Below, in pieces: positions 39 through 63,319 of a DNA stretch of 64,000 bases. The first letter of the stretch is position 1; every line of letters starts with the position of its first letter. The notes below the pieces were generated by a model. It was not told the DNA's origin. It saw nothing but the letters and a program-made list of their open reading frames with translations, and did not search any database. The position numbers and the translations under genes are program-made. Source of the stretch: Sulfuricystis thermophila (GTDB lineage Bacteria; Pseudomonadota; Gammaproteobacteria; Burkholderiales; Rhodocyclaceae); assembly GCF_004323595.1 (NCBI RefSeq), contig NZ_AP019373.1, positions 1,054,001 through 1,118,000 on the forward strand, in the 5' to 3' direction.

Positions 39-1151
39 ATGCTGGTCTGGCTGGGCGTCTGTGCCATCGTGGCCTTTCTGGCCGCATTGGCTGCGACGCT
101 GGGTGCCGTGTCAGCAGCGCCGACTTTCCACATCGCTTTCGCAGTGGGCGCCTTGCCGCTGATCTTCGGCGCGATCGGCCACTTCGTGCCGGTGCTGACA
201 AGAAGCCGCGCTCCCGCGCCGGTGATCCATTACCTGCCGCTCGTCGTACAGGCGGCGGGGATCCTCGTCCCGCCGGCACTGGCGGGATGGTTGCCGTACT
301 GGACGCTGCATCTTTCCGCGACGGTCGATGCGGCTGCCGCGCTGCTGCTGTTATTCTGGATTTCCCGCCGGCTGCGGGCAGCGCTCGGCGCGCCGCATCC
401 GGGTGCGCATTGGTATGGCGCGGCGCTGCTGTGCCTCTTCTTCGCCGTCAGTCTGGTGCCGGTCTGGCTGGCGGTGCCGGAGTTGCGCGCGGCGCTGCGC
501 CTTTTCCACCTGCATCTCAATACGCTCGGTTTCATCGGTCTGGCGGCGCTCGGCACGCTGCCGGTGTTGTTGCCGACCGCGCTGCGGCAGCCTGAGCCGA
601 CGGCGGCCACGCGCTTGCGTATCGACCTCTTGCCGGCGCTCGTCGGGGTCGTGCTGGTCGCGGCCGGAGCGGCGACGGGCTTCTGGCTGGCCGTGCCTGG
701 CGCCCTGCTGCTTTTCTGGGTGGTTGGGCGAGATCTTCGGGCCTGGTGGCGTGCCTACGGGCGCAAACTCGGCGCTGGCGAGACGGCACCTCTGCTGATC
801 GCAAGCGTGGGATTCCTGTTACTCCTCGTCGTCGGCCTCGCGCATGGCGTGGGCTGGATCGCGGCTCGGCCGGCGCTTTCCGGCTATGTCGCGCTGTTTC
901 TGCTGCCGCTCGTCAGCGGCGCGCTCGCGCAACTGCTGCCGGTCTGGCGTTATCCCGGGGCGGATTCACCGGCGCGTCAGGCGTTGCTGCACCGCCTGAC
1001 CCGGGGTGGGCCTGTCCGGGCAGCGCTGTTCTTCGTTGCCGGACTGGCATTGCTGTTCGACCTACCCTTTGCAGGAGTTCCGGCGGCACTGGCGCTCGCC
1101 GACTTCGTCCTGCGCCTGATGGCCGCACTCTATAATCCGCGCCAGTCCTGA
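39..1151 (+). CDS. polytopic inner-membrane protein of unknown function
   Basis: The 370-residue product is almost wholly hydrophobic, with about 11-12 predicted membrane helices and short basic loops. Histidines lie in membrane segments (FHIAF near residue 30, GHFVP near 47, FHLHLNT near 160), a pattern reminiscent of NnrS-like or heme-copper-oxidase-subunit-I-like proteins. That resemblance is an impression; I cannot name the family or the function. One copy of the dispersed 25-bp repeat encodes residues about 243-251 in a loop between two helices. The reading frame upstream (1-27, ending TGA) may be the tail of a preceding gene cut by the window edge. The ATG at 39 has no strong ribosome binding site, so the start is provisional. 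The threonine synthase gene follows after 15 bases on the same strand. Confidence 0.7.
   Translation: MLVWLGVCAIVAFLAALAATLGAVSAAPTFHIAFAVGALPLIFGAIGHFVPVLTRSRAPAPVIHYLPLVVQAAGILVPPALAGWLPYWTLHLSATVDAAAALLLLFWISRRLRAALGAPHPGAHWYGAALLCLFFAVSLVPVWLAVPELRAALRLFHLHLNTLGFIGLAALGTLPVLLPTALRQPEPTAATRLRIDLLPALVGVVLVAAGAATGFWLAVPGALLLFWVVGRDLRAWWRAYGRKLGAGETAPLLIASVGFLLLLVVGLAHGVGWIAARPALSGYVALFLLPLVSGALAQLLPVWRYPGADSPARQALLHRLTRGGPVRAALFFVAGLALLFDLPFAGVPAALALADFVLRLMAALYNPRQS
765..789 (+). repeat. dispersed 25-bp repeat, copy 1
   Basis: TCGGCGCTGGC, spacer GAGA, CGGCAC, preceded by AAAC. It lies in frame inside the membrane-protein gene at codons 243-251, in a loop between helices. Confidence 0.9.
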
Positions 1152-1166
1152 TCTCTTCGCCCCGCC

Positions 1167-2730: not shown

Positions 2731-2865
2731 CAAGCGAATTCCTCCTGCTCGGGGCGGCACGATAAACTTCTATTGGTCATTATAGCCAGCAGTGCCACCG
2801 GCATTGAGCCACTGCGAAAAATGCCACATTCGCGCGCCGGAGACGGGCAAATCGCTGCAATCCCC

Positions 2866-2896: not shown

Positions 2897-2937
2897 CTTG
2901 ACGGCAATTTGGCCATCCAACTTGAGGAGCATTCAGC

Positions 2938-4574: not shown

Positions 4575-5969
4575 ATGACCGTCCGTACCCGTTTCGCTCC
4601 CAGCCCGACCGGCTATCTGCACATCGGTGGTGCACGCACTGCGCTGTTCGCCTGGGCCTATGCGCGCCACCATGGCGGGCAGTTCATCCTGCGCATCGAG
4701 GATACCGACATCGAGCGCTCGACGCCGCAAGCCGTCCAGGCGATCCTCGACGGCATGCGCTGGCTGGGGCTCACCCCCGACGAGGGGCCGTTTTTCCAGA
4801 CGCAGCGCATGATGCGCTACAAGGAAGTGATCCAGCAGATGCTGGCGGCAGGCACTGCGTATCACTGTTACATGAGCAAGGAAGAGCTCGACGCCTTGCG
4901 CGCCGAGCAGGAGGCGAGAAAGGAAAAACCGCGCTACGATGGCCGCTGGAGGCCTGAGCCGGGCAAGACGCTGCCGACGCCGCCTTCTGGGGTACAGCCG
5001 GTGGTGCGCTTCCGGAACCCGACCGACGGCGTGGTCGCCTGGGATGACCTGGTCAAAGGGCACATCGAGTTCAGCAATGCCGAACTCGACGACTTCATCA
5101 TCGCGCGTGCCGATGGCACGCCGACCTACAACTTCTGCGTCGTCGTCGATGACTGGGATATGCGGATCAGTCATGTGATCCGCGGCGACGACCATGTCAA
5201 CAACACGCCGCGGCAAATCAACCTCTTGAAGGCGCTCGGTGCGCCGCTGCCGCGCTACGGCCATCTGTCGATGATCCTCGGACCGGACGGCACCAAGCTC
5301 TCGAAACGTCATGGCGCGGTGTCGGTGATGCAGTACGACGAGGACGGCTATCTGCCGGAAGCGGTGCTGAACTATCTCGCGCGGCTGGGCTGGTCGCACG
5401 GCGACGATGAGATCTTCAGCATGGAACAGTTCATCCAGTGGTTCGATCTCGATCACATCACCTCGTCGGCGGCACAGTTCAACACCGAAAAGCTCAACTG
5501 GCTGAACGCCCATTACATCAAGCATTGCGACGATGAACGGCTGGGTGAGGAAATCCGCCGGCGGCTGGTGCGCGAGGGGGTGGTCGATACCGCCTTTCCC
5601 GAGCCGGCGGCGATTGCGGCCTTGTACAAGGATCGGGTCCAAAACCTCAATGAGCTGGCCGATGCCGCGCATCCGTTCTATGTCGCGCCGCATCCGTCCG
5701 AGGAGCTGCGGACGCAGCATCTGACCGATGGCGCCCTGGCCGCCTTGCGCGATCTGCGCTGCCGTCTCGCCAGCGCCGAATTTGTGCCGGAAGCCGTGGC
5801 GAAGGCGCTCAAGGAGACGCTCGCCGCGACGGGACTCAAGATGCCGCAGGTGGCGATTCCGTTGCGCGTCGTGCTGCTCGGTCAGACGCAAAGCCCGTCC
5901 ATCGACCGCGTGCTCGCGGTGATGGGACGGGAAGAAGTGTTGAAGCGGCTGGACGCGGTGCTGGGTTAA
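4575..5969 (+). CDS. gltX: glutamyl-tRNA synthetase
   Basis: The class I synthetase charges tRNA-Glu with glutamate. The start is placed at ATG 4575 because [16 protein letters not shown] is the conserved beginning; an upstream ATG at 4512 would add 21 unrelated residues. The HIGH motif appears as HIGG in [12 protein letters not shown], and the KMSKS motif is KLSKRHG. The 464-residue length is normal. A dispersed-repeat copy lies at codons about 395-403 in the anticodon-binding region and is read CRLASAEF. The stop codon overlaps that of the convergent glycine-zipper gene. Confidence 0.96.
5759..5783 (-). repeat. dispersed 25-bp repeat, copy 2
   Basis: Minus-strand core TCGGCGCTGGC, spacer GAGA, CGGCAG, preceded by AAAT. 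It lies inside gltX. Confidence 0.85.
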
Positions 5970-6757: not shown

Positions 6758-8656
6758 TTACATTTCGCTGCGCCCTTTCCAGGCAAAGCGCGCCGGATCG
6801 ACCGCGGCGGCGAGTTCGTGCCCGATCGGCAACGGTTCGCCGCAGATCTGGCTGGCGAGCAGTTCGGCCATCAGCGGTGCCCAGACGAAGCCGCGCGCGC
6901 CATAACCGCTGGCGACGAACAGTCCCGGCCAGCACGGCCATTCGACATGCGCGAGCGGGCGTGGCTCGCATGTCGACAGCGGCAAGGCGCCGACCAGCGG
7001 CAGTTTGTCCGGCGAGACCGGCCGCAGCGCGACGCGGCCGGTGAGATTTTCCGCCGTGAAGCGCTCGCCCCAGCCGGGGAGCATGGCTTCCAGCCGGGCG
7101 AGATTTGCGGCATGTTCATCGAGGCTCGGCGTCAGATCACGGCTGCGCTTGAAGCTGGCGCCCAGGCTGGCGATACCGTCGTGCGGCGGGGCGAGATAGC
7201 CTTCGCGGCAGACGACGCAGCGCAGCGGCTGGGGAAGCGCGGCTGCCGGCAGATGGGTGGTCTGGCCGCGAAAGCAGAGGATCGGCAGATGCGCCGCCTG
7301 CGGTAGCCCAGCAATCCCATGGGCATGGGCGAGGATGACCGCTGCACCTTCCCACAGCGGCTTGCCCGCGGCATCGAGGAGACGCCAACCGTCGTCCGTG
7401 CCGGCCAATGCGGCCACGGACGTGGCGAGGCGGAGGGTGACGGCCGGCCCGGCCTGCGCCAGCAAGGCCTGAGCGAGTGAGGTGGGGGCGACCCAGCCGG
7501 CGCGGGGAAACCACCAGCCCGGGCCGGCTACCTCGGCGCCGACGATGTCCGCTGCCGATGCCGCATCGAGAAACTGCACGAAGTCGTGGGGGAGACCCTG
7601 ATCGGCGACGATACTCGCCTGTTTCTGGGCGTGCGAGTCATCACGGGCGATCTGGAACACGCCGCAACGCCCGCTGGCGACCGCGTGGCCGCCAGCGGCG
7701 AGCGCATCGAGACGGTGCAGTGCATAGAGAAAGGCACCCTGGTTCAGGCGCGCCAGGCGTGTTGCATCGACGGCCAGGGCTGGCAGCAGGATCGCCTGGT
7801 GATTGCCGGAGGTCTCGGCGGCGATGCGCTCACGCCGCTCGAACAGCGTGACTTCCAAACCGCGTGACGCGAGTCGTTCGGCGCAGGCGAGCCCGGCGAT
7901 GCCGGCGCCGATCACGGCGATTTTCCGGCCGCCGAAACTCGGCGCTGGCGGAACGGCACCTTCGGGATATTGGCCGACGAGCATCTCGCGTTTGCTGCCG
8001 AAACCGGTGCGACGCTCGACATGGAAGCCCGCCGCGGCGAGATTGCGCCGCACCTCGCCCGCCACCGTCCAGGTGGCGAGTGTCGCGCCGGGAGCGGCGA
8101 GCCAGGCCAGATCCTCGCAAACCTTCCTCGACCACATCTCGGGATTTTTTGCCGGCGAGAAACCGTCGAGATAAAAGGCGTCGAAACGTCCGGCGATGTC
8201 GCCGAGCACCGTCTGCGCCGCGCCGAAGACCAACGTCAGCGTGATGGCGCCGCCTTCGAAATGCAGCCGGTGGAAGCCGGGAATCAGGCTGGGCCAGGCT
8301 GCGCGCAATCGGGCAGCGAGCGGCGCGAGGGCAGGGAATCTTTCATGCAGCCGTGCGAGATCCTCGGCCCGAAACGGGTGTCGCTCGATCGCGAAATAAT
8401 GCAGCCGACGTCCGGGGGCTTCCTGCCACGCCTGCCAGGTGGCGAGGAAGTTGAGACCGAGGCCGAAGCCGGTTTCCAGGATGGCGAAATCGCGCCCCCG
8501 CCAGCGCGCGGGCAGATCGTTGCCGGCGAGGAACACATGACGGGCCTGTTCGAGGCCGCCGCTGGCGGAGTGATAGACGTCGCCGAAAGCTGGCGCGTAG
8601 GGTACGCCGTTGCCGTCGAACGCGAGCTCGGCGGGAACGATCGGCGCCGGCTTCAC
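6758..8656 (-). CDS. mnmC: bifunctional tRNA mnm5s2U methyltransferase / FAD oxidoreductase
   Basis: MnmC completes 5-methylaminomethyl-2-thiouridine at the tRNA wobble position: the FAD domain removes the carboxymethyl group and the SAM domain methylates. The 632-residue protein shows the N-terminal methyltransferase ([14 protein letters not shown] near residue 62; [14 protein letters not shown] near 175) and the FAD domain beginning at [15 protein letters not shown] near 250. The join between domains (codons 233-241) is made of a dispersed-repeat copy read AVPPAPSF. The start is a GTG overlapping the lysS stop as GTGA, so translation is probably coupled in a prfB-lysS-mnmC operon. Confidence 0.95.
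7935..7959 (+). repeat. dispersed 25-bp repeat, copy 3
   Basis: TCGGCGCTGGC, spacer GGAA, CGGCAC, preceded by AAAC. It forms the linker between the two catalytic domains of MnmC. Confidence 0.9.
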
Positions 8657-12950: not shown

Positions 12951-12975
12951 AAAGTCGGCGCTGGCGAGACGGCAC
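12951..12975 (+). repeat. dispersed 25-bp repeat, copy 4
   Basis: Full consensus with spacer GAGA, preceded by AAAG. It lies between the gdh stop and the prfC start. Confidence 0.95.
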
Positions 12976-14305: not shown

Positions 14306-14330
14306 TGGCTCGGCGCTGGCGAGACGGCAC
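14306..14330 (+). repeat. dispersed 25-bp repeat, copy 5
   Basis: TCGGCGCTGGC, spacer GAGA, CGGCAC; the AAA lead is not kept. It lies between ackA and gdh. Confidence 0.88.
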
Positions 14331-17727: not shown

Positions 17728-17752
17728 GTGCCGTCCTGCCAGCGCCGAGTTT
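17728..17752 (-). repeat. dispersed 25-bp repeat, copy 6
   Basis: Minus-strand consensus with spacer AGGA, preceded by AAAC. It lies between the ppiC-type and mtfA genes. Confidence 0.92.
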
Positions 17753-21324: not shown

Positions 21325-23094
21325 ATGACCGACACCCCCGACTCCTTCGCGGCGCTCGCGCTGCCACCGTATCTCCTTTCCGCGCTCGCCGAAGTCGGCT
21401 ATGAGACGCCGTCGCCGATCCAGGCCGCCTGCATCCCGCATCTGTTGGCCGGACGCGACCTGCTCGGCGAAGCGCAGACGGGCACCGGCAAGACGGCGGC
21501 GTTTGCGCTGCCGATCCTGGCGCGGCTCGATCTGGCCGACAAGCGCCCGCAGGCACTGGTGCTCGCACCGACGCGCGAGCTGGCGATCCAGGTCGCCGAA
21601 GCCTTCCAGAAATACGCGCACCAGATGCCGGGCTTCCACGTGCTGCCGATCTACGGCGGCCAGAGCATGGTGATCCAGCTGCGGGCGCTCTCCCGTGGCG
21701 CGCAGGTGATCGTCGGCACGCCGGGCCGCATCATGGATCACCTCGAACGGAAGAGCCTCGATCTTGGCCATCTGCGGACGCTGGTGCTCGATGAGGCCGA
21801 CGAGATGCTGCGCATGGGCTTCATCGACGATGTCGAATGGATCCTCGAACACACGCCGGCGACGCGACAGACGGCGCTGTTTTCGGCGACCATGCCGGAA
21901 CCGATCCGCCGCATCGCGAGCCGTTATCTGCGCGAGCCGCAGCAGGTCAAGATCCGCGCCGCGACGGCGACGGTGGCGACGATCAAGCAGAAATACTGGA
22001 AAGTCACCGGCGCCGACAAGCTCGAAGCGCTGACCCGCATGCTCGAAGTCGAGGAGGATTTCGAGGCGGCGATCGTCTTCGTGCGCACCAAGACCGCGAC
22101 GGTCGAACTCGCCGAACGGCTCGAAGCCCGCGGCTACGAGGCGGCGGCCTTGAACGGCGACATGACGCAGGGCCTGCGCGAGCAGGTGATCGAGCGGCTG
22201 AAGAACGGCAGTCTCGACATCGTCGTCGCCACCGATGTCGCCGCGCGCGGCCTGGACGTGCCGCGCATCAGCCATGTCATCAACTACGACATCCCTTACG
22301 ACGTCGAAGCCTACGTGCACCGCATCGGCCGCACCGGACGGGCGGGGCGGGCGGGTGTGGCGATCCTGTTCGTTTCCCCCCGCGAGATGAGGATGCTCAA
22401 GGCCATCGAGCGCGCGACGCGCCAGCCGATCGAGCCGGTTGGTTTGCCGAGCCGCGGCGAGGTGGCCGAACGACGGGTGCAGCAGTTCCGCCAGCAGATC
22501 CTCGACACGCTGGCGCAGGAAAATCTCGACTTCTTCTACGACGTGGTGCGGCGCATGGAAAGCGAAGACGGGCTGGCGACGCGCCAGATCGCCGCCGCGC
22601 TCGCCTTTCTCGCCCAGCGCGAGCGGCCATTGCGGCCGGAGGGGCTTGCAGAGCCGGAGGGTGCCGGCCAGATTTCACGCGGCGAGCCGACGCGTGCCGT
22701 CTCGCGAGCGCCGACTTTCGAGATGGCGCCAGAGAAGACCGAGCGCAAGCCGCGTCCCGCCCCGGCGCCCAAGCGCGATTTCGACCGTGCGCCGATCGTC
22801 CGCTACCGCATCGAAGTGGGCAGGAACCAGGGCGTGCTGCCGAAGGAAATCGTCGGCGCAATCGCCAACGAAGGCGGCATCGACGGTCGGCTGATCGGTC
22901 AGATCCACCTGTTCGACGACTACAGCACCGTCGAATTGCCGGAACTGCCGGCCGAAGTGCTCGACATCCTCAAACGCACGCGGGTGAGACACCTGCCGCT
23001 GAGGATCCGCCCGGCAAAGGCAGGCGAGGGCGACAAGCCGCGCGCCGCGCGCCGTCCGAGCGCCGCGACAGCCGATAGGCCGCGGCGTCGCTGA
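21325..23094 (+). CDS. deaD: DEAD-box RNA helicase, CsdA/DeaD type
   Basis: The 589-residue protein has the helicase core with Q motif (SPIQAACIP), Walker A AQTGTGKT, DEAD box VLDEADEML, SAT, and motif VI HRIGRTGRAGR. It ends with a DbpA-type RNA-binding domain (about residues 492-560; YRIEVGRNQGVLPKEIVGAIANEG split over this region) and a basic tail. Such helicases act in ribosome assembly and cold adaptation. The linker before the RNA-binding domain (codons 457-465) contains a dispersed-repeat copy read RAVSRAPTF. Confidence 0.95.
   Translation: MTDTPDSFAALALPPYLLSALAEVGYETPSPIQAACIPHLLAGRDLLGEAQTGTGKTAAFALPILARLDLADKRPQALVLAPTRELAIQVAEAFQKYAHQMPGFHVLPIYGGQSMVIQLRALSRGAQVIVGTPGRIMDHLERKSLDLGHLRTLVLDEADEMLRMGFIDDVEWILEHTPATRQTALFSATMPEPIRRIASRYLREPQQVKIRAATATVATIKQKYWKVTGADKLEALTRMLEVEEDFEAAIVFVRTKTATVELAERLEARGYEAAALNGDMTQGLREQVIERLKNGSLDIVVATDVAARGLDVPRISHVINYDIPYDVEAYVHRIGRTGRAGRAGVAILFVSPREMRMLKAIERATRQPIEPVGLPSRGEVAERRVQQFRQQILDTLAQENLDFFYDVVRRMESEDGLATRQIAAALAFLAQRERPLRPEGLAEPEGAGQISRGEPTRAVSRAPTFEMAPEKTERKPRPAPAPKRDFDRAPIVRYRIEVGRNQGVLPKEIVGAIANEGGIDGRLIGQIHLFDDYSTVELPELPAEVLDILKRTRVRHLPLRIRPAKAGEGDKPRAARRPSAATADRPRRR
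22694..22718 (-). repeat. dispersed 25-bp repeat, copy 7
   Basis: Minus-strand consensus with spacer GAGA and one core change (GCTCGC for GCTGGC). It lies in the linker of the DEAD-box helicase. Confidence 0.88.
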
Positions 23095-26231: not shown

Positions 26232-27611
26232 ATGCTGAAAATCTACAACTCGCTGACCCGCACCCTGCAGGAATTCGTGCCCATCGAGCCGGGCAAAGTG
26301 CGGCTCTACGTCTGCGGCATGACCGTCTACGACTACTGCCATCTCGGCCACGCCCGCGTGCTGGTGGTCTTCGACATGGTGGTGCGCTGGCTCAAGGCCA
26401 GCGGCTATCAGGTCACCTATGTGCGCAACATCACCGACATCGACGACAAGATCATCAAGCGCGCCGCGGAAAACGGCGAATCGATCCGTAGTCTCACCGA
26501 TCGCTTCATCGCGGCGATGCACGAGGATGCCGACGCTTTAGGCGTGGCGCGGCCCGATTTCGAACCACGTGCCACCGAATACGTGCCGGCGATGCAGGAG
26601 CTGATCGCCAAGCTGGAAAAGAACGGCTATGCCTATGTCGCCGCCAACGGCGACGTCTGCTATGCAGTACGCAAGTTTCCCGGCTATGGCAAGCTTTCCG
26701 GCAAATCGCTCGAAGACCTGCGCGCCGGCAGTCGTGTCGATGTCATGGAAGGCAAGCACGATCCGCTCGACTTCGTGCTCTGGAAACACGCGAAGCCGGA
26801 GGAGGGCGCCGAGGTCAAGTGGGATTCGCCGTGGGGGCCGGGACGTCCCGGCTGGCACATCGAATGCTCGGCGATGAGCTCGCGCCTCTTGGGCGAGCAC
26901 TTCGACATCCACGGCGGCGGCCAGGATTTGCAGTTCCCGCACCACGAGAACGAGATCGCGCAATCCGAAGGGGCGCATGGCCATACCTTCGTCAATTACT
27001 GGATGCACAACGGCTTCGTGCGCGTCGATGACGAGAAGATGTCGAAATCGCTCGGCAACTTCTTCACCATCCGCGAAGTCCTCTGGAAATACCATCCCGA
27101 AGTCGTGCGTTTCTTCATCCTGCGCGCGCACTATCGCAGCCCGCTGAATTACTCGGATGCCCATCTCGAGGATGCGAAGGTCGCGCTCACCCGCCTCTAC
27201 ACCGCGCTGAAAGGATTCGTTGTCGAAGCTCGGGTGGATTGGCACGAAGCGCATGCGCAACGTTTCAAAGCGGCGATGGACGACGACTTCGCCACGCCGG
27301 AAGCGATCGCGGTGCTGTTCGATCTCGCCAATGAGGTGAATCGCAGCAAGGACGCACGACTGGCCGCGCAGCTGAAGGGCTTGGGTGGCGTATTGGGCCT
27401 GCTGCAACGCGATCCGCTCGAATTCCTGCAAGCTGGGCCCGTCGCGGGCGAGAGCATGAGCACGGCGGAAATCGACGCCAAGGTCGCCGCCCGCACCGCC
27501 GCGAAGAAGGCAAAGAACTTCGCCGAAGCCGACCGCATCCGCGACGAACTGAAAGCCGCCGGCATCATCCTCGAAGACGGCCCGCAAGGCACCACCTGGC
27601 GGCGGGCGTAA
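26232..27611 (+). CDS. cysS: cysteinyl-tRNA synthetase
   Basis: The class I synthetase charges tRNA-Cys. The 459-residue protein has the N-terminal zinc cysteine in [10 protein letters not shown], the HIGH motif in [21 protein letters not shown] with the second zinc cysteine, HHENEIAQ, and KMSKS in [11 protein letters not shown]. The length is normal. The stop codon overlaps the first two bases of a dispersed-repeat copy (27610-27634) that fills the gap before accA. Confidence 0.97.
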
Positions 27612-27634
27612 AGTCGGCGCTGGCGGAGCGGCAC
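27610..27634 (+). repeat. dispersed 25-bp repeat, copy 8
   Basis: Consensus with spacer GGAG, preceded by AAAG. Its first two bases are the last of the cysS stop codon, and it fills the gap before accA. Confidence 0.93.
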
Positions 27635-29566: not shown

Positions 29567-30144
29567 GCGAGCTCGACTGCGGAGCGCACGCCCATCTTTT
29601 CGAAGATGTGCGCGCGGTGCACTTCGACGGTGCGCATCGCGATCGACAGCTCGTCGGCGATCACCTTGTTGAGCTTGCCAGCGAGAATGCGCTCCATCAC
29701 CTCGCGTTCGCGTTCGGTGAGGGTGGCGAGCCGTTCCAGCACCGCGGCTTTCATGCCGTCCTGCCAGCGCCGATTTTGCTCATGCTGCAGTGCCTCATGC
29801 ACGCGGTCGGCGAGTTCGTTGTCGTTGAACGGTTTCTCGATGAAGTCGAAGGCGCCGCGCTTCAAGGCTTTCACTGCCAGCGGCACGTCGCCATGGCCGG
29901 TGAGGAAGATCACCGGCATCGCGCAGCCGCGCTCGATCAGGCGCTCATGCAGTTCGCTGCCGGTCATGCCGCCCATGCGCAGGTCGAGGATCAGGCAGCC
30001 GCTCATCTCGTCGCTGTAGTCGGCGAGAAAGGCTTCGGCCGATTCCCAGGCTCGGCAGGGAATGCCGCGCGAACGCAGCAGCCAGGGGATCGCGTCGCGG
30101 AGCGCGGCGTCGTCATCGACGATATAGGCCATGCCGGTGGTCAT
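29527..30144 (-). CDS. FixJ-family two-component response regulator
   Basis: The 205-residue protein has an N-terminal receiver domain (YIVDDDAALRDAI; phosphoacceptor Asp in CLILDLRMGG; conserved Lys in FIEKPF) and a C-terminal LuxR-type helix-turn-helix (LTEREREVMERILAG, SIAMRTVEVHRAHIFEKMGV). The start at 30144 overlaps the kinase stop as ATGA; upstream ATGs would extend into the kinase end. The interdomain linker (codons 123-131) is formed by a dispersed-repeat copy read NRRWQDGMK. Target genes are unknown. Confidence 0.93.
   Translation of the reverse strand: MTTGMAYIVDDDAALRDAIPWLLRSRGIPCRAWESAEAFLADYSDEMSGCLILDLRMGGMTGSELHERLIERGCAMPVIFLTGHGDVPLAVKALKRGAFDFIEKPFNDNELADRVHEALQHEQNRRWQDGMKAAVLERLATLTEREREVMERILAGKLNKVIADELSIAMRTVEVHRAHIFEKMGVRSAVELAQRLSLLGPPGSR
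29753..29777 (-). repeat. dispersed 25-bp repeat, copy 9
   Basis: Minus-strand consensus with spacer AGGA, last base T, preceded by AAAA. It lies in the linker of the FixJ-type regulator. Confidence 0.9.
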
Positions 30145-35960: not shown

Positions 35961-37871
35961 TCACTTTAGACGAGTTTCGAGGCTTTCCCAGCGCTCCAGC
36001 AGGGCCAACAGTTCATCGTCGATGGCGGCCAGCCGCGCCGCAACGGCTTGCGCCTGCTGCGGGTCGCCATACAGTGCAGGGTCTGAGAGGCGCTGCGCCA
36101 GGCTTTTCTGCTCGGCTTCGAGTGTGGCGATGGACTCGGGCAAAGCTTCCAGTTCGCGTTGTTCTTTCCAAGAGAGCCTGTCGGGCCTCGTTTTGCTTTC
36201 GTGCCGTCCTGCCAGCGCCGACTTTTGCGAAGCGGATTGTGGCGGCGGATTGCGCGGGGACTCGCGGCGTTCGCTTTGATACGCCGCCCAGTCGCTGTAG
36301 CCGCCGGCATTTTCGCGCCAACGGCCATCGCCTTCGGCAGCGATGGTCTGGGTGACGATGGCATCGAGAAAGGCGCGGTCGTGGCTGACCAAAAACACCG
36401 TGCCGGGATAGTCCTGCAGCAGGTCTTCGAGCAGGTCGAGCGTTTCGATGTCGAGATCGTTGGTCGGCTCGTCGAGCACGAGCACGTTGGCTGGCCGCGC
36501 GAACAGACGCGCCAGGAGCAGGCGGTTCTTTTCTCCGCCGGAGAGCGATTTCACTGGCGAGCGCGCACGTTGCGGCGCGAACAGGAAGTCGCCGAGATAG
36601 CCGACGACGTGCTTTCTTTTTCCGCCGATCTCGACCCAGTCCGAACCCGGCGAGATGAGGTCGGCGAGCGTGGCCTCGGGATCGAGCTGGGCTCGGAACT
36701 GGTCGAAGTAGGCGATCTCGAGCTTCGTGCCGCGCTTCACCGTGCCGCTGTCGGGCTTGAGTTCACCCAGGATGAGGCGCAGCAGGGTGGTCTTGCCAGC
36801 CCCATTGGGGCCGATGATGCCGACGCGGTCGCCCCGGAGGATGCGGCAGGAGAAGTCGCGTACGACGCGCCGCTCGCCGAAGGCCTTGCTGACGTGATCG
36901 AGCTCGGCCACCACCTGCCCGCTCTTTTCGCCGGCATCGAGGCGCAACCGCGCCTCGCCGATCCGCTCGCGGCGTGCAGCGCGCTCGGCACGCAGCTGTT
37001 CGAGCCGCTGGACGCGGAACACGGCACGGGTGCGGCGCGCCTCGACGCCCTGCCGGATCCACGCTTCTTCTTCCTTCAGCAGTTTGTCGAAACGCTGCTG
37101 CGCCTTTGCTTCGTCGGCGAGTTCGCGCTCCTTGCGCTCCCGGTAGGCCGCGAAGCTGCCGGGGTAGCTGGTCAGCCGGCCGCGGTCGAGTTCGACGATC
37201 CTCGTGGCTAGCCGGTCGAGAAAGCGCCGGTCGTGGGTGACGAATAGCAGGGTCAGCCGGTTTTCGAGCAGAAAGGTTTCCAGCCACTCGATCGCGTCGA
37301 TGTCGAGATGGTTCGTCGGTTCGTCGAGCAGCAACACGTCGGGAGCGACGGCGAGTGCCTGGGCCAGCGCGACACGCTTTTTCTGGCCGCCGGAGAGCGT
37401 GCCGATCCGCGCATCGGCGTCGAGGGTGAAACGCGCGATCACCTGCTCGGCGCGCGCCTCGTAAGCCCAGACACCGAGGGCTTCCATCTCGTGCTGCAGC
37501 GTTTCCATGCGTGCGAGCAACGGCGCCTGGTCGGTCTCGGCGTCCGCCAAGCGATGCGCGACATCGTGATATTCGGCGAGCAGCCGGCTGGTTGCCCCCA
37601 TGCCGGCGACCACGGTCTCGAATACCGTGAGATCGGGATCGAGCGGCGGCTCCTGGGGCACATAGCCGATCCTGAGGCCGGGCTGCAGCCACAGGGTGCC
37701 GTCGTCGAGGTGGGCCTTGCCAGCCAACGCAGCGAGCAGCGAGGATTTGCCGCTGCCGTTCCTGCCGATCAGCGCGACGCGCTCGCCGGCATCGAGCTGG
37801 AAATCGGCTGCGTCGAGCAGTGGCACATGGCCGTAGGCGAGGTGGCCGGCGTCGAGTTTGATGAGGGGCAT
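35961..37871 (-). CDS. uup: ABC-F ATPase, Uup type
   Basis: The 636-residue protein has two ABC domains in one chain and no membrane part. Walker A motifs are GRNGSGKSSLLAAL and GPNGAGKTTLLRLI, signatures LSGGQKKRVALAQ and LSGGEKNRLLLAR, and both have LDEPTNHLD or LDEPTNDLD. A charged coiled-coil tail (about residues 565-636) is the Uup DNA-binding domain type. The linker before it (codons 549-557) is a dispersed-repeat copy read QKSALAGRH. ABC-F proteins act on the ribosome; Uup also affects transposon excision in Escherichia coli. Its start abuts the nitroreductase stop. Confidence 0.93.
   Translation of the reverse strand: MPLIKLDAGHLAYGHVPLLDAADFQLDAGERVALIGRNGSGKSSLLAALAGKAHLDDGTLWLQPGLRIGYVPQEPPLDPDLTVFETVVAGMGATSRLLAEYHDVAHRLADAETDQAPLLARMETLQHEMEALGVWAYEARAEQVIARFTLDADARIGTLSGGQKKRVALAQALAVAPDVLLLDEPTNHLDIDAIEWLETFLLENRLTLLFVTHDRRFLDRLATRIVELDRGRLTSYPGSFAAYRERKERELADEAKAQQRFDKLLKEEEAWIRQGVEARRTRAVFRVQRLEQLRAERAARRERIGEARLRLDAGEKSGQVVAELDHVSKAFGERRVVRDFSCRILRGDRVGIIGPNGAGKTTLLRLILGELKPDSGTVKRGTKLEIAYFDQFRAQLDPEATLADLISPGSDWVEIGGKRKHVVGYLGDFLFAPQRARSPVKSLSGGEKNRLLLARLFARPANVLVLDEPTNDLDIETLDLLEDLLQDYPGTVFLVSHDRAFLDAIVTQTIAAEGDGRWRENAGGYSDWAAYQSERRESPRNPPPQSASQKSALAGRHESKTRPDRLSWKEQRELEALPESIATLEAEQKSLAQRLSDPALYGDPQQAQAVAARLAAIDDELLALLERWESLETRLK
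36201..36225 (-). repeat. dispersed 25-bp repeat, copy 10
   Basis: Minus-strand consensus with spacer AGGA, preceded by AAAG. It lies in the linker before the Uup C-terminal coiled coil. Confidence 0.92.
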
Positions 37872-39266: not shown

Positions 39267-39291
39267 AAACTCGGCGCTGGCAAAGCGGCAC
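39267..39291 (+). repeat. dispersed 25-bp repeat, copy 11
   Basis: Consensus with spacer AAAG, preceded by AAAC. It ends six bases before the greB ATG. Confidence 0.92.
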
Positions 39292-44113: not shown

Positions 44114-44542
44114 TTACCCTGCCTTGCGGCGGATGCAGTCGAGATAGGCTGCGCCGTCGGGCGGCCGACGCTCCCGCTGCGCGCGCCAAATCGTCTCGCC
44201 GAGACAATCGAGGATGTCATGCAGTGCGTCGTGCGCATTGCCGTGGCGCGAGCGCCGACTTTCGAACAGCGCGCGGATGCCCGGTGGCTGGTCGATGGAC
44301 AATTGTTCGGCGATCGCCAGATGCAAAGAGAGATGCAGGAAAGGATTCATCGCGCCGTCTTCGGGTGTCCACTCGCGTGTCAGCGCGTCGGGCGCCGTGA
44401 GCAGCGCATGGTATTCCGGGTGCATGGCGACGATGTCGGCGGCGATCGTTTCCAGCGCCGAGGCGGGAATGCCCTCGCAGCGCTTGCGCCAGGCATCGAT
44501 GAGGAATTGCCTTGCCTGGTCACGCGTGGGGTTGAAGAGCAT
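44114..44542 (-). CDS. DUF1841 family protein
   Basis: The 142-residue protein starts MLFNPTRDQARQFLIDAW and contains HPEYHALL, NPFLHLSLHLAIAEQLSIDQPPGI and HDALHDILDCLGETIWRAQR, the conserved blocks of the DUF1841 family. Function is unknown. A frame open to 44569 would add nine residues. It overlaps nth by 23 bases in the same orientation, an arrangement seen in many betaproteobacteria. A degenerate dispersed-repeat copy lies inside. Confidence 0.9.
   Translation of the reverse strand: MLFNPTRDQARQFLIDAWRKRCEGIPASALETIAADIVAMHPEYHALLTAPDALTREWTPEDGAMNPFLHLSLHLAIAEQLSIDQPPGIRALFESRRSRHGNAHDALHDILDCLGETIWRAQRERRPPDGAAYLDCIRRKAG
44238..44262 (-). repeat. dispersed 25-bp repeat, degenerate copy 12
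   Basis: About 21 of 25 positions match the minus-strand consensus; the spacer is GCCA, not all purine. It lies inside the DUF1841 gene. This is the weakest copy. Confidence 0.5.
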
Positions 44543-51604: not shown

Positions 51605-53689
51605 TCATTCTTCGGCCATCTCGCCGAGCAGCAGTTCCTGCGCGCAGGTGCGCACGCGTCGGGAGGGGCGGATGCGGTAAACACCGTCGCTGTCCATGTC
51701 CCAGGCCTGGCAATTGTCGGCCAGGTAGGCGCGCAGGCCTTCGCGGATCACGCGCCGTTTGAGCTTCGGATCGAGCACCGGGAAACAGACCTCGATGCGG
51801 CGGAAGAAATTCCGCTCCATCCAGTCGGCGCTGCCCAGATAGACCCGCTCGGCGCCGTCGGCATGGAAATAGAAAATACGGTGGTGTTCGAGGAAGCGAC
51901 CGATCACCGAGCGCACGCGGATGTTTTCGGACAATCCCGGCACGCCCGGGCGCAGGCAGCAGACGCCGCGCACGATCAGATCGATCTTCACCCCGGCCTG
52001 GCTCGCGGCATAGAGCGCCTCGATGATCTGCGGTTCGAGCAGCGCGTTCATCTTGGCGATGATCTGTGTCTTGCGCCCCGCCTTGGCGATCTTCGTTTCT
52101 TCCCGGATCGCATCCAGCATGTTGTCGTGCAGCGTGAAAGGCGCCTGCCAGAGGTGCTTGAGCTCGACCGCCTTGCCCAGTCCGGTGAGCTGTTTGAAGA
52201 TTTCGTTGACGTCGGCGGTGATCTCGTCGTGACAGGTCAGCAGGCCGAAATCGGTATAAAACCGCGTCGTGCGCGGGTGGTAATTGCCGGTGCCCAAATG
52301 CACGTAGCGGCGATAACCTTGTTCCTCACGGCGCAACACCAGCATCATCTTGGCATGCGTCTTGTAGCCGAACACGCCATAGACGACATGGGCGCCGACC
52401 TCTTCGAGCCGTGCCGCGATCGACAGATTCGCCTCCTCGTCGAATCGTGCCATCAGCTCGACGACGACGGTGACTTCCTTGCCCTTCTGGGCGGCGCGCA
52501 GCAGGTGCTCCATCAACACCGAATCGGTGCCGGTGCGATAGACCGTCATCTTGATCGCCACAACCTGCGGATCGTCGGCCGCCTGTTTGAGGAATTCGAT
52601 CACCGGCGTAAACGACTGGTAGGGATGATGCAGCAGGATGTCACCTTTGCGGATCGCGGCGAACATGTCCTCGCGGCCGGAGAGCTGCCTGGGCAGGCCC
52701 GGCTGGAAGGGCTTGAATTTCAGATCGGGACGGTCGACGCGGTCCGGCACCGAAATCAGCCGCACCAGATTGACGATGCCATGCACCTGATACAGATCGT
52801 CGCGGCCGAGGCCGAACTGCTGGAGCAGGAAGTCGACCATCGCCGGTGAGCAGTTGTCCGGCACTTCGAGCCGCACCGCATCGCCGAAGTGGCGCTGCGG
52901 CAGTTCGCCCTGCAGCGCGGTGCGCAGGTTCTTGACTTCTTCTTCGTCGACGAACAGATCGGAGTTGCGCGTGACGCGAAACTGGTAACAGCCGAGCACG
53001 TTCATGCCGGCGAACAGTTCGCCGACATAGCGGTGCATCACCGACGAGAGAAAAATGAAGCCGTAGTCGATGCCGGTGAGCTCGCGTGGCAGTTGGATCA
53101 CGCGCGGCAGTGCGCGCGGTGCCTGGACGATCGCGGCGCCGCCGGCGCGGCCGAAGGCATCGGTGCCTTCGAGCTCGACGGCGAAGTTGAGGCTCTTGTT
53201 CAGTACGCGCGGGAAGGGGTGCGCCGGGTCCAGCCCGATCGGCGTCAGCACCGGCATCACCTCGCGCCGGAAATAATCATGGATCCAGGCTTCCTGCGCC
53301 TCGTTCCATTCCGAACGCCTGAAGAAGCAGATGCCTTCCTTGCGCAATGCCGGCAGGATCACCTGATTGAGCAGGGCATACTGTTCCTCGATCAGGCGAT
53401 GCGCTTCACGCGTGACGAGCCGGAACACCTCCTGCGCCGTGCGCCGGTCGGCGCCGGTGATGCTGCTCTTGAGTTTGATTTGTTCCTTGATGCCGGCGAC
53501 GCGGATTTCGAAAAACTCGTCGAGATTGGACGAGACGATGCACAGGAAGCGCAGGCGTTCGAGGAGCGGCACGCGCGCGTCCGCCGCCTGGGCCAGGACG
53601 CGGCGGTTGAAGGCGAGCAGCGACAATTCGCGGTTGAGGAAATGTTCTGCCGGGAATTCGGGCGGCAGGGCTTGGGGCGTGATCATCAT
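51605..53689 (-). CDS. ppk: polyphosphate kinase 1
   Basis: PPK1 polymerises the terminal phosphate of ATP into polyphosphate. The 694-residue length is normal. N-terminal FLNRELSLLAFNRRVL and the catalytic histidine regions YKTHAKMMLVLRRE and EHHRIFYFHADG are present, plus RFDEEANLSIAARLEE. The frame continues in the minus strand across ppx for another 2 kb as an artefact. Start is ATG 53689 (MMITPQALPPEFPAEHF). It is divergent from ppx; the gap holds a dispersed-repeat copy. Confidence 0.96.
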   Translation of the reverse strand: MMITPQALPPEFPAEHFLNRELSLLAFNRRVLAQAADARVPLLERLRFLCIVSSNLDEFFEIRVAGIKEQIKLKSSITGADRRTAQEVFRLVTREAHRLIEEQYALLNQVILPALRKEGICFFRRSEWNEAQEAWIHDYFRREVMPVLTPIGLDPAHPFPRVLNKSLNFAVELEGTDAFGRAGGAAIVQAPRALPRVIQLPRELTGIDYGFIFLSSVMHRYVGELFAGMNVLGCYQFRVTRNSDLFVDEEEVKNLRTALQGELPQRHFGDAVRLEVPDNCSPAMVDFLLQQFGLGRDDLYQVHGIVNLVRLISVPDRVDRPDLKFKPFQPGLPRQLSGREDMFAAIRKGDILLHHPYQSFTPVIEFLKQAADDPQVVAIKMTVYRTGTDSVLMEHLLRAAQKGKEVTVVVELMARFDEEANLSIAARLEEVGAHVVYGVFGYKTHAKMMLVLRREEQGYRRYVHLGTGNYHPRTTRFYTDFGLLTCHDEITADVNEIFKQLTGLGKAVELKHLWQAPFTLHDNMLDAIREETKIAKAGRKTQIIAKMNALLEPQIIEALYAASQAGVKIDLIVRGVCCLRPGVPGLSENIRVRSVIGRFLEHHRIFYFHADGAERVYLGSADWMERNFFRRIEVCFPVLDPKLKRRVIREGLRAYLADNCQAWDMDSDGVYRIRPSRRVRTCAQELLLGEMAEE

Positions 53690-53734
53690 GATGGCAGGAG
53701 CGGCTTTTTGTTGCCGCAAGTATGACACGGCGCT

Positions 53735-53759
53735 GTGCCGTTCCGCCAGCGCCGATTTT
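53735..53759 (-). repeat. dispersed 25-bp repeat, copy 13
   Basis: Minus-strand consensus with spacer GGAA, preceded by AAAA. It lies between the divergent ppk and ppx genes. Confidence 0.93.
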
Positions 53760-53806
53760 CGGCTGCTAGAATCGACGCACTGCACATAGAGACGGGATTC
53801 TCTGCC

Positions 53807-55300
53807 GTGATACATGAACACGTCGCCGCCGTCGACTTGGGCTCCAACAGTTTTCGCCTGCAGGTTGGTCGCGTGGTCGGCAACCAGATCTACCCGCTCG
53901 ACAGCCTCAAGGAGCCGGTGCGGCTCGCCGCCGGCCTGACCGCAGACAAATGGCTCGATGCCGCCGCGCAACGGCGCGGGCTGGCGGCCTTGGCGCGTTT
54001 CGGTGAGCGCCTGCGCGGCTTTGCTCCCGATGCGGTGCGTGCCGTCGCCACCAACACACTGCGCGTCGCCCGCAATGCGGCCGAATTCCTCGCCCAGGCC
54101 GAGGCGGTGCTCGGTTTTCCCATCGAGGTGATCGCCGGTCGTGAGGAGGCACGCCTGATCTATCTCGGCGTCGCCCATACCCTGCCCAATCAGCGCATCC
54201 GCCATCTGGTCGTCGACATCGGCGGCGGCTCCACCGAATTCATCATCGGCCGCAACATCAAGCCGCTGCTGCTCGAATCGCTCTACATGGGTTGCGTCGG
54301 CTACAGCCTGCGATTTTTCCCCGACGGCCGCGTCACCAAGCGCAACATGAAGGAAGCCGAGCTGGCCGCGCGCCGCGAGTTGCAGGCCATCGTGCATGCC
54401 TATCGCGCGACCGGCTGGGATCTCGCAGTCGGCTCGTCCGGAACGGCCAAGGCGATCTGCGACCTGCTCGAATTCAATGGCTTTGCTGCAGGCACCATTA
54501 CCCGTGAGGGGCTCGAGCGCCTGCGTCACCGCCTCGTCTTGGCTGGTCACGCCGCCAAGACGGGGCTCGTCGGTATGCGCCCCGATCGCGTGCCGGTGCT
54601 TCCCGGCGGGCTGGCGATCATGTCGGCGGTGTTCAAGGGGCTGGGGCTCGAGGAAATGGTCTATTCCGAAGGCGCGCTGCGTCTGGGTGTGCTCTACGAC
54701 CTCTTGGGCCGCTATCATCACGAAGACATGCGCGAGGCGACCGTCAAGCGCTTCATCCAGCGCTACGAGGTGGATCGGGCCCAGGCGGCGCGGGTCGCCA
54801 CCACGGCCCTTGAGCTCTACCAGCAACTGCGGCCGCAGGAGGATATCGAGACTTCGCCGGCGGCACAGTTCCTTGCCTGGGCGGCTCGGCTCCATGAAGT
54901 GGGTGTCTCGGTGGCGCACACCAGCTATCACAAGCACAGCGCCTACATCCTCGCCAATGCCGACATGCCCGGTTTTTCGCGCCGCGATCAGGCGTTGCTG
55001 GCGCGTCTCGTGCTCGCGCACCGCGGCAAGCTCGAACGGGTGCAGCCGCTTTCGCCGGATGCGCCCGAATGGCAGCTGATCTTCTGTCTGCGCCTGGCCG
55101 CGCTGCTCCATCGTGCTCGCGACGATGCCCCCTTGCCCGAACTCCATGCGCGCCATACCGCGAAGGGCTTCGAGTTGGCGATCGACCGGGAATGGCTCGC
55201 GGAGGCGCCCTTGACGGCCGCGACGCTCGACGAAGAGGTCGGACAATGGGCGAGCGTGGGCATCGGCTTCAAGGTACGCAACCTGCGCACACATGCCTGA
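53807..55300 (+). CDS. ppx: exopolyphosphatase of the Ppx/GppA family
   Basis: Ppx/GppA enzymes split polyphosphate or pppGpp. The GTG at 53807 is taken as start since VIHEHVAAVDLGSNSFRLQV places the first phosphate-binding motif at the family position; an ATG at 53735 would start inside the dispersed repeat. The second motif is DIGGGSTEFIIG and the third GSSGTAKAI. The C-terminal HD-like region (LHEVGVSVAHTSYHKHSAYILAN) is complete. The 497-residue length matches Ppx. It is divergent from ppk and its stop overlaps the next gene by eight bases. Confidence 0.95.
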   Translation: MIHEHVAAVDLGSNSFRLQVGRVVGNQIYPLDSLKEPVRLAAGLTADKWLDAAAQRRGLAALARFGERLRGFAPDAVRAVATNTLRVARNAAEFLAQAEAVLGFPIEVIAGREEARLIYLGVAHTLPNQRIRHLVVDIGGGSTEFIIGRNIKPLLLESLYMGCVGYSLRFFPDGRVTKRNMKEAELAARRELQAIVHAYRATGWDLAVGSSGTAKAICDLLEFNGFAAGTITREGLERLRHRLVLAGHAAKTGLVGMRPDRVPVLPGGLAIMSAVFKGLGLEEMVYSEGALRLGVLYDLLGRYHHEDMREATVKRFIQRYEVDRAQAARVATTALELYQQLRPQEDIETSPAAQFLAWAARLHEVGVSVAHTSYHKHSAYILANADMPGFSRRDQALLARLVLAHRGKLERVQPLSPDAPEWQLIFCLRLAALLHRARDDAPLPELHARHTAKGFELAIDREWLAEAPLTAATLDEEVGQWASVGIGFKVRNLRTHA

Positions 55301-59136: not shown

Positions 59137-59772
59137 ATGAGCTGGACGACGAAGCAGAAAAAAAAGAGCAAGGCGTGGATGCAGCAGCACGTCAATGACC
59201 CGTATGTGCAGCAGGCGCAAAAGGAGGGCTGGCGCTCGCGCGCGGTGTTCAAGCTGAAAGAGATCGACGAGAAGGACAGGCTGCTCAAGCCCGGCATGAC
59301 GGTCGTCGACCTGGGTGCCACGCCCGGCAGTTGGTGCCAGTATGTCATCAAACGTATCCAGCCGGGCGGGCGGCTGATCGCGCTCGATCTGCTGGATTTC
59401 GAGCCGATTCCGGGAGTCGATTTCATCCAGGGCGATTTCCGCGACGCGGCGGTGCTGGCGCGGCTGGAATCGGCGCTGGCGGGACGGCAGGTCGACCTTG
59501 TATTGTCGGACATGGCGCCCAATATGACGGGTATCGCGGCAACGGACAGCGCTCAGGTGATGGTCTTGGCCGAGCTGACGCTCGATTTTGCAAAGCAGCA
59601 TCTGAAACCCGGCGGCGATCTGCTGGTCAAAGTGTTTCAAGGCGCCGGCTTCATGGAGCTGCGGCGGGAGATGCAAACAGTCTTCGAGACGCTGGCGACG
59701 CGCAAACCGGCCGCATCGCGGGATCGCAGCGCGGAGCTGTACTTGCTGGCGAGAAAGAAGCGGTTGACATAG
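59137..59772 (+). CDS. rlmE: 23S rRNA 2-O-ribose methyltransferase
   Basis: RlmE (FtsJ/RrmJ) methylates U2552 of 23S rRNA. The 211-residue protein has the N-terminal basic arm ([16 protein letters not shown]), the SAM-binding motif [11 protein letters not shown] and the catalytic K-D-K-E set, with [10 protein letters not shown] and [10 protein letters not shown]. The repeat copy at codons 110-118 is read ESALAGRQ. rlmE-ftsH order is conserved in proteobacteria. Confidence 0.96.
59466..59490 (+). repeat. dispersed 25-bp repeat, copy 14
   Basis: TCGGCGCTGGC, spacer GGGA, CGGCAG, preceded by GGAA. It lies inside rlmE. Confidence 0.82.
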
Positions 59773-59807: not shown

Positions 59808-61694
<1,887 letters not shown>

Positions 61695-61699
61695 GAGGC

Positions 61700-61915: not shown

Positions 61916-62271
61916 GCCGGGAGAAGTTGCGTCCGCTGGTGCGGCCGCGGCTGTATCTCGGTGACCAACTCTCGCTGGGTCCCGGCAAGATCGACCTGTT
62001 GCGTAAGGTCGCTGAGGTGGGCTCGATCAGTGCGGCGGCAAGGGCACTCGGTGTGCCCTACAAGCGTGCCTGGCTGTTGATCGATACCTTGAATCGTGGT
62101 TTCCCTTCCCCGGTGCTGGAAACCGTCGCAGGTGGCAAGCAGGGGGGCGGTGCGCGTCTGACACCGCTGGGCGAGGCGCTGGTGGCCGCCTACGACGCGC
62201 TGGAGACGAAGCTCAATGCGGCAGCGCGCGCCGAGCTCAATGCCCTGGTGAGGCTGGCCCGCCGGCGATGA
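61912..62271 (+). CDS. ModE N-terminal-type winged-helix regulator
   Basis: The 119-residue protein is a LysR-like or ModE-type winged helix: GPGKIDLLRKVAEVGSISAAARALGVPYKRAWLLIDTLN, then GGGARLTPLGEALVAAYDALE. The C-terminal molybdate-binding MopI domains of full-length ModE are absent, so metal sensing is not obvious. The last 35 bases overlap the convergent ATPase gene. The position beside a molybdate-type transporter suggests it regulates it, by inference. Confidence 0.88.
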   Translation: MSREKLRPLVRPRLYLGDQLSLGPGKIDLLRKVAEVGSISAAARALGVPYKRAWLLIDTLNRGFPSPVLETVAGGKQGGGARLTPLGEALVAAYDALETKLNAAARAELNALVRLARRR

Positions 62272-63319
62272 CGAACAGATCGCCGGCGGGCAGGCCGACG
62301 AGTCCGGACTGACCGGCTGCAAACCCATACTTGCGCAGTACGCGGATGCCGCAGCGTGCTTCGAGCAGCGCGCCGGTTTCGCTGCGAAAGTGCAGCAGCG
62401 CTGCTTCGCCGAGATCGACCACTGCTTCTAAGCGCCCGGCCAGCCGTGTTTCGCCGGCGTGCGGCGGATCGTCGGGCCGGCGCAGCGCGACATGCTCGGG
62501 ACGGATCGCGATCAGGATTTCGTCGCCGGCGGGCTCGGCGCCGCTCACGGGCAGACGGCCGCCCAAAGCTGGACAGTCGATGCTGAACGCATCGATCCTC
62601 TGTGCGGAGAAAATGTTCTTCAGACCCAGAAAGCGCGCCACCGCCTCGCTCGCCGGGCGGCGATAGACCGCCGTCTTCTCACCGCTTTGCTCCTGTCGGC
62701 CGTCGATCAGCACGGTGATGTGATCGGCGAGGAAATAGGCCTCGGCGAGATCATGGGTGACGATCATCACCGTCAGGCCCCGCTCCCGCTGCAGGTCTTT
62801 GACCAGCCACCACAGCTCGCGGCGCAGGCTCTCATTGAGGGCGGTGAAGGGCTCGTCGAGCAGCACCAGGCGCGGGTGGGCGACGAGCGCGCGCACCAAG
62901 GCGACGCGCTGACGTTCGCCGCCGGAAAGCGTGGCGATGCGGCGCGACAGCAGATGACCGATGCCGGTGATCTCGATGAGGCGCTCAAACAGGGGCTGAA
63001 AGTCGGCGCTGGCGAGACGGCACGCCCGCGCGCCGTAGAGCAGGTTGTCGAGGACGGCGAGATGCGGAAACAGTCCCAGCTGCTGCGGCACGTAGCCGAG
63101 CCGGCGGCGCTCGATCGGCCAGTGCGTGATGTCCTCACCCGCCAGGCGCACGTGGCCGGAGGAGGGTGTGAGCGTGCCGAGGATCGCGGCGAGCAGGGTG
63201 CTCTTGCCCGAGCCGGAAGGACCGAGGATGGCATGGCATTCACCGGCGCCGACGGTGAGCGACACATCGTGCAGCCGGAAGCTGCCGGCGCTGACGCTCA
63301 AGTGTTCGAGCTCAAGCAT
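62237..63319 (-). CDS. molybdate/tungstate-type ABC transporter ATPase
   Basis: The 360-residue ATPase has Walker A GPSGSGKSTLLAA, Q-loop YVPQQLGLFPHL, signature LSGGERQRVALVRAL, Walker B LVLLDEPFTALN and H-loop IVTHDLAEA. A C-terminal TOBE-like region follows (about residues 285-355). It resembles ModC, WtpC and CysA-like proteins; the ModE-like gene next door supports oxyanion transport. A dispersed-repeat copy at codons 99-107 is read CRLASADF in the helical domain after the Q-loop. Confidence 0.85.
   Translation of the reverse strand: MLELEHLSVSAGSFRLHDVSLTVGAGECHAILGPSGSGKSTLLAAILGTLTPSSGHVRLAGEDITHWPIERRRLGYVPQQLGLFPHLAVLDNLLYGARACRLASADFQPLFERLIEITGIGHLLSRRIATLSGGERQRVALVRALVAHPRLVLLDEPFTALNESLRRELWWLVKDLQRERGLTVMIVTHDLAEAYFLADHITVLIDGRQEQSGEKTAVYRRPASEAVARFLGLKNIFSAQRIDAFSIDCPALGGRLPVSGAEPAGDEILIAIRPEHVALRRPDDPPHAGETRLAGRLEAVVDLGEAALLHFRSETGALLEARCGIRVLRKYGFAAGQSGLVGLPAGDLFVIAGGPASPGH
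62999..63023 (+). repeat. dispersed 25-bp repeat, copy 15
   Basis: Full consensus with spacer GAGA, preceded by AAAG, identical to copy 4. It lies inside the ModC-type ATPase gene. Confidence 0.95.

Follow-up and report, generated by a model that had tools for sequence, protein, structure and literature searches.

A 25-bp sequence dispersed through the genome of Sulfuricystis thermophila, a member of the Rhodocyclaceae, probably works like a DNA uptake sequence (DUS). It occurs repeatedly in the window, the whole stretch of 64 kb analyzed here, which covers positions 1,054,001-1,118,000 of the single contig of 2,737,315 bases that makes up the host genome (G000). The repeat unit is AAANTCGGCGCTGGC-RRGA-CGGCAC. 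We put the probability of this putative function at about 0.85, given that the motif displays the genomic hallmarks tested here and shares the consensus of neither the DUS of the Neisseriaceae nor the uptake signal sequence (USS) of the Pasteurellaceae. On the best reading, it would represent a third uptake-sequence system, in Rhodocyclaceae, unrelated in sequence to the other two. An uptake-signal-like sequence was one of three options that the initial annotation of the window had offered without ranking them, and it is the one favored by the evidence.

Anatomy, abundance, and genomic placement

With 3 mismatches allowed, the pattern TCGGCGCTGGCNNNNCGGCAC has 16 matches in the window, 8 on each strand (Table 1); 100 shuffles gave 1.7 on average and 6 at most. 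All 15 places listed in the initial annotation, 8 plus and 7 minus, were recovered. Its tally of 14 good copies and a degenerate one held to the extent that 10 are perfect, 4 have 1 mismatch, and the one at 44238 has 2; the copy at 103-127 had been overlooked. Over the whole 2.74-Mb genome, 552 copies of the pattern of 17 fixed bases were counted when 2 mismatches were tolerated, with 276 on either strand, versus 2 matches to a reversed-pattern control, bearing out the claim that the recurrence is beyond chance. The density is about 2 per 10 kb, with a copy about every 4-5 kb.

Copy numbers were taken genome-wide, and the anatomy of the motif was studied in a 464-kb sample composed of the window and 20 evenly spaced 20-kb stretches (17% of the genome). 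This sample holds 92 copies, 48, 34, and 10 of them at 0, 1, and 2 mismatches, for which 40 shuffled patterns averaged 0, 0.05, and 0.7, respectively. Aligned with 60-base flanks, the 92 copies gave the logo AAA-n-TCGGCGCTGGC-(G/A)(G/A)G-A-CGGCAC, with sharp edges on both sides and nothing strongly conserved beyond the 25 bp. The AAA proposed as the start of the motif is present in the logo, although two copies in the window lack it (Table 1). The four linker bases had been taken as free; they are mostly G/A, G/A, G, and A, with A at position 19 in 89% of the copies, and the linker is therefore purine-rich. The motif has two blocks on either side of this linker and about 20 fixed positions. 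A 10-mer inside or overlapping it was the top over-represented word in the samples of five of the six carriers examined (G000, G019, G026, G055, and G063), the exception being G062, with a sample of only 23 kb; it did not lead in the sample of G006.

By a simple and rough gene caller, 86% of the sampled bases are coding. Sixty-one of the 92 copies lie within called genes, 28 between genes, and 3 across gene ends; the motif is rarer in coding DNA, and the intergenic share represents a twofold excess over the 14% expected (p = 5e-5). The copies at 39267 and 53735, counted as genic, may lie just before the true starts of their genes, which would only raise this share. Copies within genes are spread unequally over the six possible readings (22, 12, 3, 16, 8, and 0; chi-square p = 3.5e-6), the favored peptides being KxGAGxTA and (E)KSALAGRH and, in antisense, (R)AVxPAPTF.

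A rival explanation is that the motif is a by-product of codon or amino-acid usage in a high-GC genome. The motif is indeed GC-rich, and 50 within-gene synonymous shuffles of the sample still yielded 8.3 ± 2.7 copies (maximum 15), some protein words favoring it. The 61 copies observed in genes are not explained by protein sequence and codon use, and set against this codon-matched model the repeat withstood the refutation test that the initial annotation had named. The enrichment outside genes also speaks against this explanation, as do the baseline counts of most relatives, such as G040, which has 39 copies at 54-72% GC in five sampled stretches (GC was compared for this genome only). Refuted at the level tested, the explanation is scarcely credible.

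A role in transcription, as half of a terminator, a promoter, or a regulator site, would agree with the intergenic enrichment. It is highly improbable, however, because most sampled copies are within called genes and occur in both orientations, no stem-loop potential above that of shuffles was detected in the copies, and the sample has no close inverted pairs, the closest copies being 426 bp apart.

The scatter of the copies is Poisson-like (mean 3.8 and variance 3.5 per 20 kb over the 20 stretches). Relative to local GC skew, used as a guide to replication, the 92 sampled copies are oriented 44:48, so the strand bias that had been suggested as a check was not seen. FtsK orienting polar sequences (KOPS), Chi, and other polar chromosome motifs are short, frequent, non-palindromic, and polar relative to replication, whereas this motif is non-polar in the sample, longer, and was found in high numbers only in certain genera of a single family. 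Two of the 20 sampled stretches have no copies at all. One is a constrained ribosomal-protein operon, in which the five proteins scanned were EF-G, L5, L6, S13, and RNA polymerase alpha, and the other is a prophage, with portal, head, tail, and endolysin families among six proteins scanned and tape-measure families for one more.

Table 1. Positions of the 25-bp motif in the window, with mismatches counted over the 17 fixed bases
Position	Strand	Match	Context
103..127	-	2 mismatches	Inside gene 39-1151; intact at the orthologous site of G002
765..789	+	perfect	Within gene 39-1151; encodes KLGAGETAPL
5759..5783	-	1 mismatch	Antisense within glutamyl-tRNA synthetase-type gene
7935..7959	+	perfect	Antisense in gene 6758-8656 (Methyltransf_30 and DAO domains, mnmC-like)
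12951..12975	+	perfect	Intergenic
14306..14330	+	perfect, without AAA (TGGC there)	Intergenic
17728..17752	-	perfect	Intergenic
22694..22718	-	1 mismatch	Antisense in DEAD-box helicase gene
27610..27634	+	perfect	Shares last 2 bases of gene 26232-27611
29753..29777	-	1 mismatch	Within called gene 29527-30156
36201..36225	-	perfect	Within ABC ATPase gene (ABC_tran_CTD); encodes QKSALAGRHE
39267..39291	+	perfect	5' end of GreA/GreB-type gene as called; true start may follow motif
44238..44262	-	2 mismatches	Within DUF1841 gene
53735..53759	-	perfect	Within called gene 51605-54205; true start may follow motif
59466..59490	+	1 mismatch, without AAA (GGAA there)	Within FtsJ-type methyltransferase gene
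62999..63023	+	perfect	Antisense in ABC transporter ATPase gene

Origin, maintenance, and distribution among relatives

To follow the copies through evolution, 59 of them in stretches of 30 genomes were aligned with their orthologous places. After 253 pairs that did not span the site and 38 with poor flanks were dropped, 94 were kept, in which the ortholog has the motif (54), part of it (19), or none of it (21). Among the 21 motif-less orthologs, 8 show no net change in length (4 gapless and 4 with balanced gaps), 12 are between 1 and 9 bases longer or shorter, and in one 28 bases are missing, so that 20 of the 21 are within 9 bases of the same length. A 25-base insertion is clearly not the rule at orthologous sites. 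At the glutamyl-tRNA synthetase site (5759), 11 relatives align without gaps at 1, 2, 3, 4, 8, 10, or 11 mismatches, and 3 are gapped. Because no more than about six distinct sites underlie the 21 motif-less alignments, these are not independent of one another; the sites point to an origin of the copies by point mutation rather than insertion. In a table restricted to copies of the window, 22 of 55 pairs have gaps inside the 25 bases.

Conservation was then compared between two classes of relatives. In 126 pairs with motif-rich relatives (G005 left out), the fixed positions are 83.4% identical (2101/2520) and the inner variable positions 65%, while the adjoining five bases on the two sides reach 62% and 66% and the further flanks 71-76%. 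With motif-poor relatives, represented by only 9 pairs, the fixed positions are 65% identical versus 67-69% for the far flanks, with 56% and 91% in the adjoining five bases. The fixed positions thus rise above the flanks only with motif-rich relatives, which suggests that the motif is preserved as such in motif-rich genomes alone.

These alignments bear on the proposal that the copies are the remnants, at hundreds of places, of mobile mini-elements. The repetitive extragenic palindromes with their associated transposases (REP/RAYT) and the miniature inverted-repeat transposable elements (MITEs) are dispersed short repeat families, and many near-identical dispersed copies are also seen here; the ortholog without 28 bases is compatible with an insertion or a deletion, and the gaps in the window pairs could be read in the same direction. 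The motif, however, has neither palindrome nor terminal repeats nor an insertion signature: 20 of the 21 motif-less orthologs have no length change of the size of an insertion, there is no conserved flank or hairpin, most copies sit within called genes in preferred frames, and one and the same orthologous site carries a gapless series from 1 to 11 mismatches. The contrast with REP/RAYT drawn in the initial annotation was accordingly upheld, its suggestion of a mini-element scar was contradicted by these lengths and by conservation ending at 25 bp, and we hold such an origin to be very unlikely.

The motif was counted in 120 relatives, many of them draft genomes in many contigs, comprising 18 genomes of the same genus, 54 of other genera of the family, and 48 of other families. 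In the same genus, 17 of the 18 genomes have 133 to 635 copies, and G006 has 4. Four of the 54 genomes from other genera (G019, G026, G055, and G063) have 137 to 442 copies and the other 50 have 0 to 37, while none of the 48 from other families exceeds 25. When 297 genomes of the family were scanned at up to 1 mismatch, the genera g2, g46, and g112 were also repeatedly high, and in an order-wide draw of 300 genomes only G000, G002, and G063 were rich (263 to 491), the other 297 having 6 or fewer. Records with the exact 25-mer in a species-level genome collection are titled Rhodocyclaceae, Sulfuritalea, or unspecified Proteobacteria (among 80 listed of at least 120 matches).

Lineage dialects emerged when consensus sequences were built from sites that differ from the original motif at no more than 5 positions in the stretches retrieved. 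The host species and its nearest kin (G002, G004, and G014) end mostly in ...CGGCAC, position 24 is mixed A/G in G001, G003, G008, and G012, and G019, G055, and G063 end mostly in ...CGGCGA. G026 has TCGGTGCTGG and TCGGCGCTGG in equal parts (C/T at position 9). Most copies listed for G062 (genus g45) read TCGACGCTGG, with A at position 8 and the C at position 15 often absent; this genome has 192 copies of a dialect-tolerant core versus only 37 of the original pattern. With that core (20 fixed bases, up to 2 mismatches, at most 2 control matches), 28 genomes split cleanly into 22 carriers with 192 to 818 copies and six others, namely, G006, G028, G037, G046, and G147 with 1 to 11 copies and G040 with 39. 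The carriers span seven genera of one family (g1, g2, g9, g38, g45, g46, and g112), which answers the question, raised with the initial annotation, of sharing among relatives. A de novo word search in a small sample of G006 (56.5 kb) yielded no comparably strong motif that could have taken its place.

In five genomes outside the family, each with only 2-5 core copies in all, 2-3 of these lie within about 9 kb: G106:C3:26361-30943 (L418), G384:C34 (L419), G083:C29 (L420), G499:C24 (L421), and G479:C5 (L422). These clusters are either contamination of the bins or tracts that motif-rich donors supplied. In L418, a copy is at the edge of a 116-bp match, at 86%, to a motif-bearing Sulfuritalea contig (L061).

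The distribution also helps to weigh a further alternative, namely, that the motif is the binding site of a nucleoid-associated, segregation, or replication-linked protein, with hundreds of evenly spread sites under selection. The spread of one copy every 4-5 kb and the motif-specific conservation would fit any sequence-specific DNA-binding protein, and to that extent the chromosome-organising site proposed in the initial annotation agrees with the data. This alternative explains less well why orientation follows no GC skew and copies no regional clustering in the sample, why most neighbouring genera are at baseline, why dialects drift at several positions, why reading frames are used unequally, and why the sampled prophage and ribosomal-operon stretches, which need packaging too, have no copies. 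We consider it unlikely.

Candidate receptors and points that weigh against an uptake role

If the motif is an uptake sequence, a type IV pilus-based uptake machine would bind the double-stranded motif through a candidate receptor, probably a minor pilin. Fragments with the motif would be taken up preferentially, their recombination into the chromosome would favor motif-bearing alleles, and point mutation together with molecular drive would let copies build up and persist at every place that genes can accommodate. We infer that the uptake machine reads the motif, that some protein recognizes it, and that its maintenance is owed to drive and not to a different benefit.

The host has some of the genes that such a process would need, among them comEC, dprA, and 15 genes for type IV pilin-like proteins. 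Four pilin-like genes were scanned, one of them a major pilin (PF00114) and three in a cluster at 1,711,449-1,712,922, of which one is of GspH/FimT type, one of the ComP_DUS family, and one has the N-terminal pilin motif only. FimT- and ComP-type pilins were examined first because both are described as DNA-binding minor pilins (PMC8897410). ComP_DUS (PF16732) was rejected as a tracker of the receptor, as 107 of 121 genomes, motif-rich and motif-poor alike, have a match. In 109 of the 121 genomes comEC was found, and dprA in 13 of the 14 searched; both are widespread, so neither predicts the motif. The genome without a dprA match is the motif-rich G019, perhaps owing to draft gaps.

Two observations on host pilins may be added. 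At G000:C1:2089549-2097120 (L268), three clustered pilin-like genes are well conserved in the motif-rich G012, G019, and G063 and match only the shared pilin start in G001, G006, G028, G037, G040, and G026 (the last and G037 and G040 being partly fetched), and G044 has a 48% match to one of them. In addition, a pilin gene near G000:C1:2361818 (L271) seems to hold a copy of the motif in its leader coding sequence (MKRAVPPAPTF...).

Several findings weigh against an uptake role. The FimT-like pilin, tried as the receptor, is only 30% identical in the motif-rich G001, and a comparison of 16 pilin-like open reading frames of the host with those of eleven relatives (among which G026, G055, G037, G040, and G044 were retrieved in part) turned up no pilin that cleanly tracks the motif. 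G006, of the same genus, has comEC, dprA, and pilins, and is essentially without the motif; having these genes is thus not enough to predict it. To these are added the small number of distinct motif-less sites, the ortholog without 28 bases, and the gapped window pairs described above, as well as a motif that is longer than the Neisseria DUS (about 20 fixed bases versus a 10-mer) and rarer at its density. Finally, the exact core is present in at least 120 stretches of a viral database (L428-L547), where copies beyond the index copy number 0.52 per 10 kb versus 1.38 in bacterial stretches, the latter being 120 contig stretches chosen by the full 25-mer. Possible explanations are that phages infecting these hosts bear the tag and that host DNA has been included in the viral contigs. 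In one viral contig (L452:629-2238), 4.7 repeats of a 316-bp unit carry five exact cores at spacings of 316-385 bp; judged by eye, the ends of this unit may resemble integron attC sites.

A special link between motif loss and decay of ComEC in G006 was also considered. Its ComEC is 56% identical, versus 66-71% in five other members of the genus, but three of nine other genes compared are also below the range of the others, one as far (55% versus 67-70%), so the link is suggestive only. On a ComEC tree of 22 genomes with 200 bootstrap trees, from which the long-branch rows G028 and G070 were left out, a single origin of the trait was rejected, because at least three changes are needed and none of the 200 bootstrap trees gets by with a single one. 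More than one gain or loss of the trait must thus have occurred, unless comEC has moved; one gain with two losses fits the tree as well as several gains.

Comparison with known systems and implications

USS and DUS are regarded as independent and convergent (PMC12616744), and Neisseria is named as the exception to sequence-blind uptake (PMC12236230). The DUS and USS consensus sequences are given as ATGCCGTCTGAA and AAAGTGCGGT, with an orientation preference in genes (PMC2346458). The Neisseria DUS is described as a 10-mer with about 1900 copies per genome, and in the Neisseriaceae eight dialects are reported with about 900 to 6000 copies per genome (PMC3630211). The motif resembles the neisserial system in reaching hundreds to thousands of copies, in being the top over-represented word, in having lineage dialects of one core, and, by genes alone, in a host with type IV pilins, ComEC, and DprA. 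It differs in its consensus, which is unrelated to ATGCCGTCTGAA, in the two blocks with their purine-rich linker, and in that no equivalent of ComP could be pinned down.

For USS, the hallmarks described are an origin by point mutation, an even spread, and under-representation in new segments and constrained genes (PMC7811141). The motif is similar to the Pasteurellaceae USS in evolving, as it seems, by point mutation, in being rarer in new and constrained DNA, and in an A-rich 5' end followed by a GC-rich core. Unlike it, the core has about 20 bases and the consensus differs from AAAGTGCGGT, only AAAGT and CGG being common to both, which we take as coincidence. The open-licence PubMed Central literature that was searched, in which a subscription paper would be missed, listed no earlier account of this motif or of any uptake sequence in Rhodocyclaceae.

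More tentatively, and at somewhat less than even odds, the motif could be an independently evolved third code of DNA self-recognition, serving natural transformation in free-living Rhodocyclaceae, in which a receptor unlike ComP/ComN would read a two-block site of 23-25 bp, and dialects would unite several genera in a single community of gene exchange from which neighbouring genera are shut out.

Among known examples of bacteria that select self DNA for sex, uptake sequences are the clearest. Rhodocyclaceae are known from wastewater systems. Known uptake sequences are treated as belonging to two families, both mainly of mucosal surfaces (PMC7811141). If the uptake function holds, a third system, gained, lost, and split into dialects among closely related genera, would show that such codes evolve repeatedly. 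It would also supply a comparative set for finding receptors, and ideas on molecular drive, on a barrier to foreign DNA, and on competition with host DNA would become testable outside mucosal niches. The motif itself could be used as a watermark for tracing DNA derived from these bacteria.

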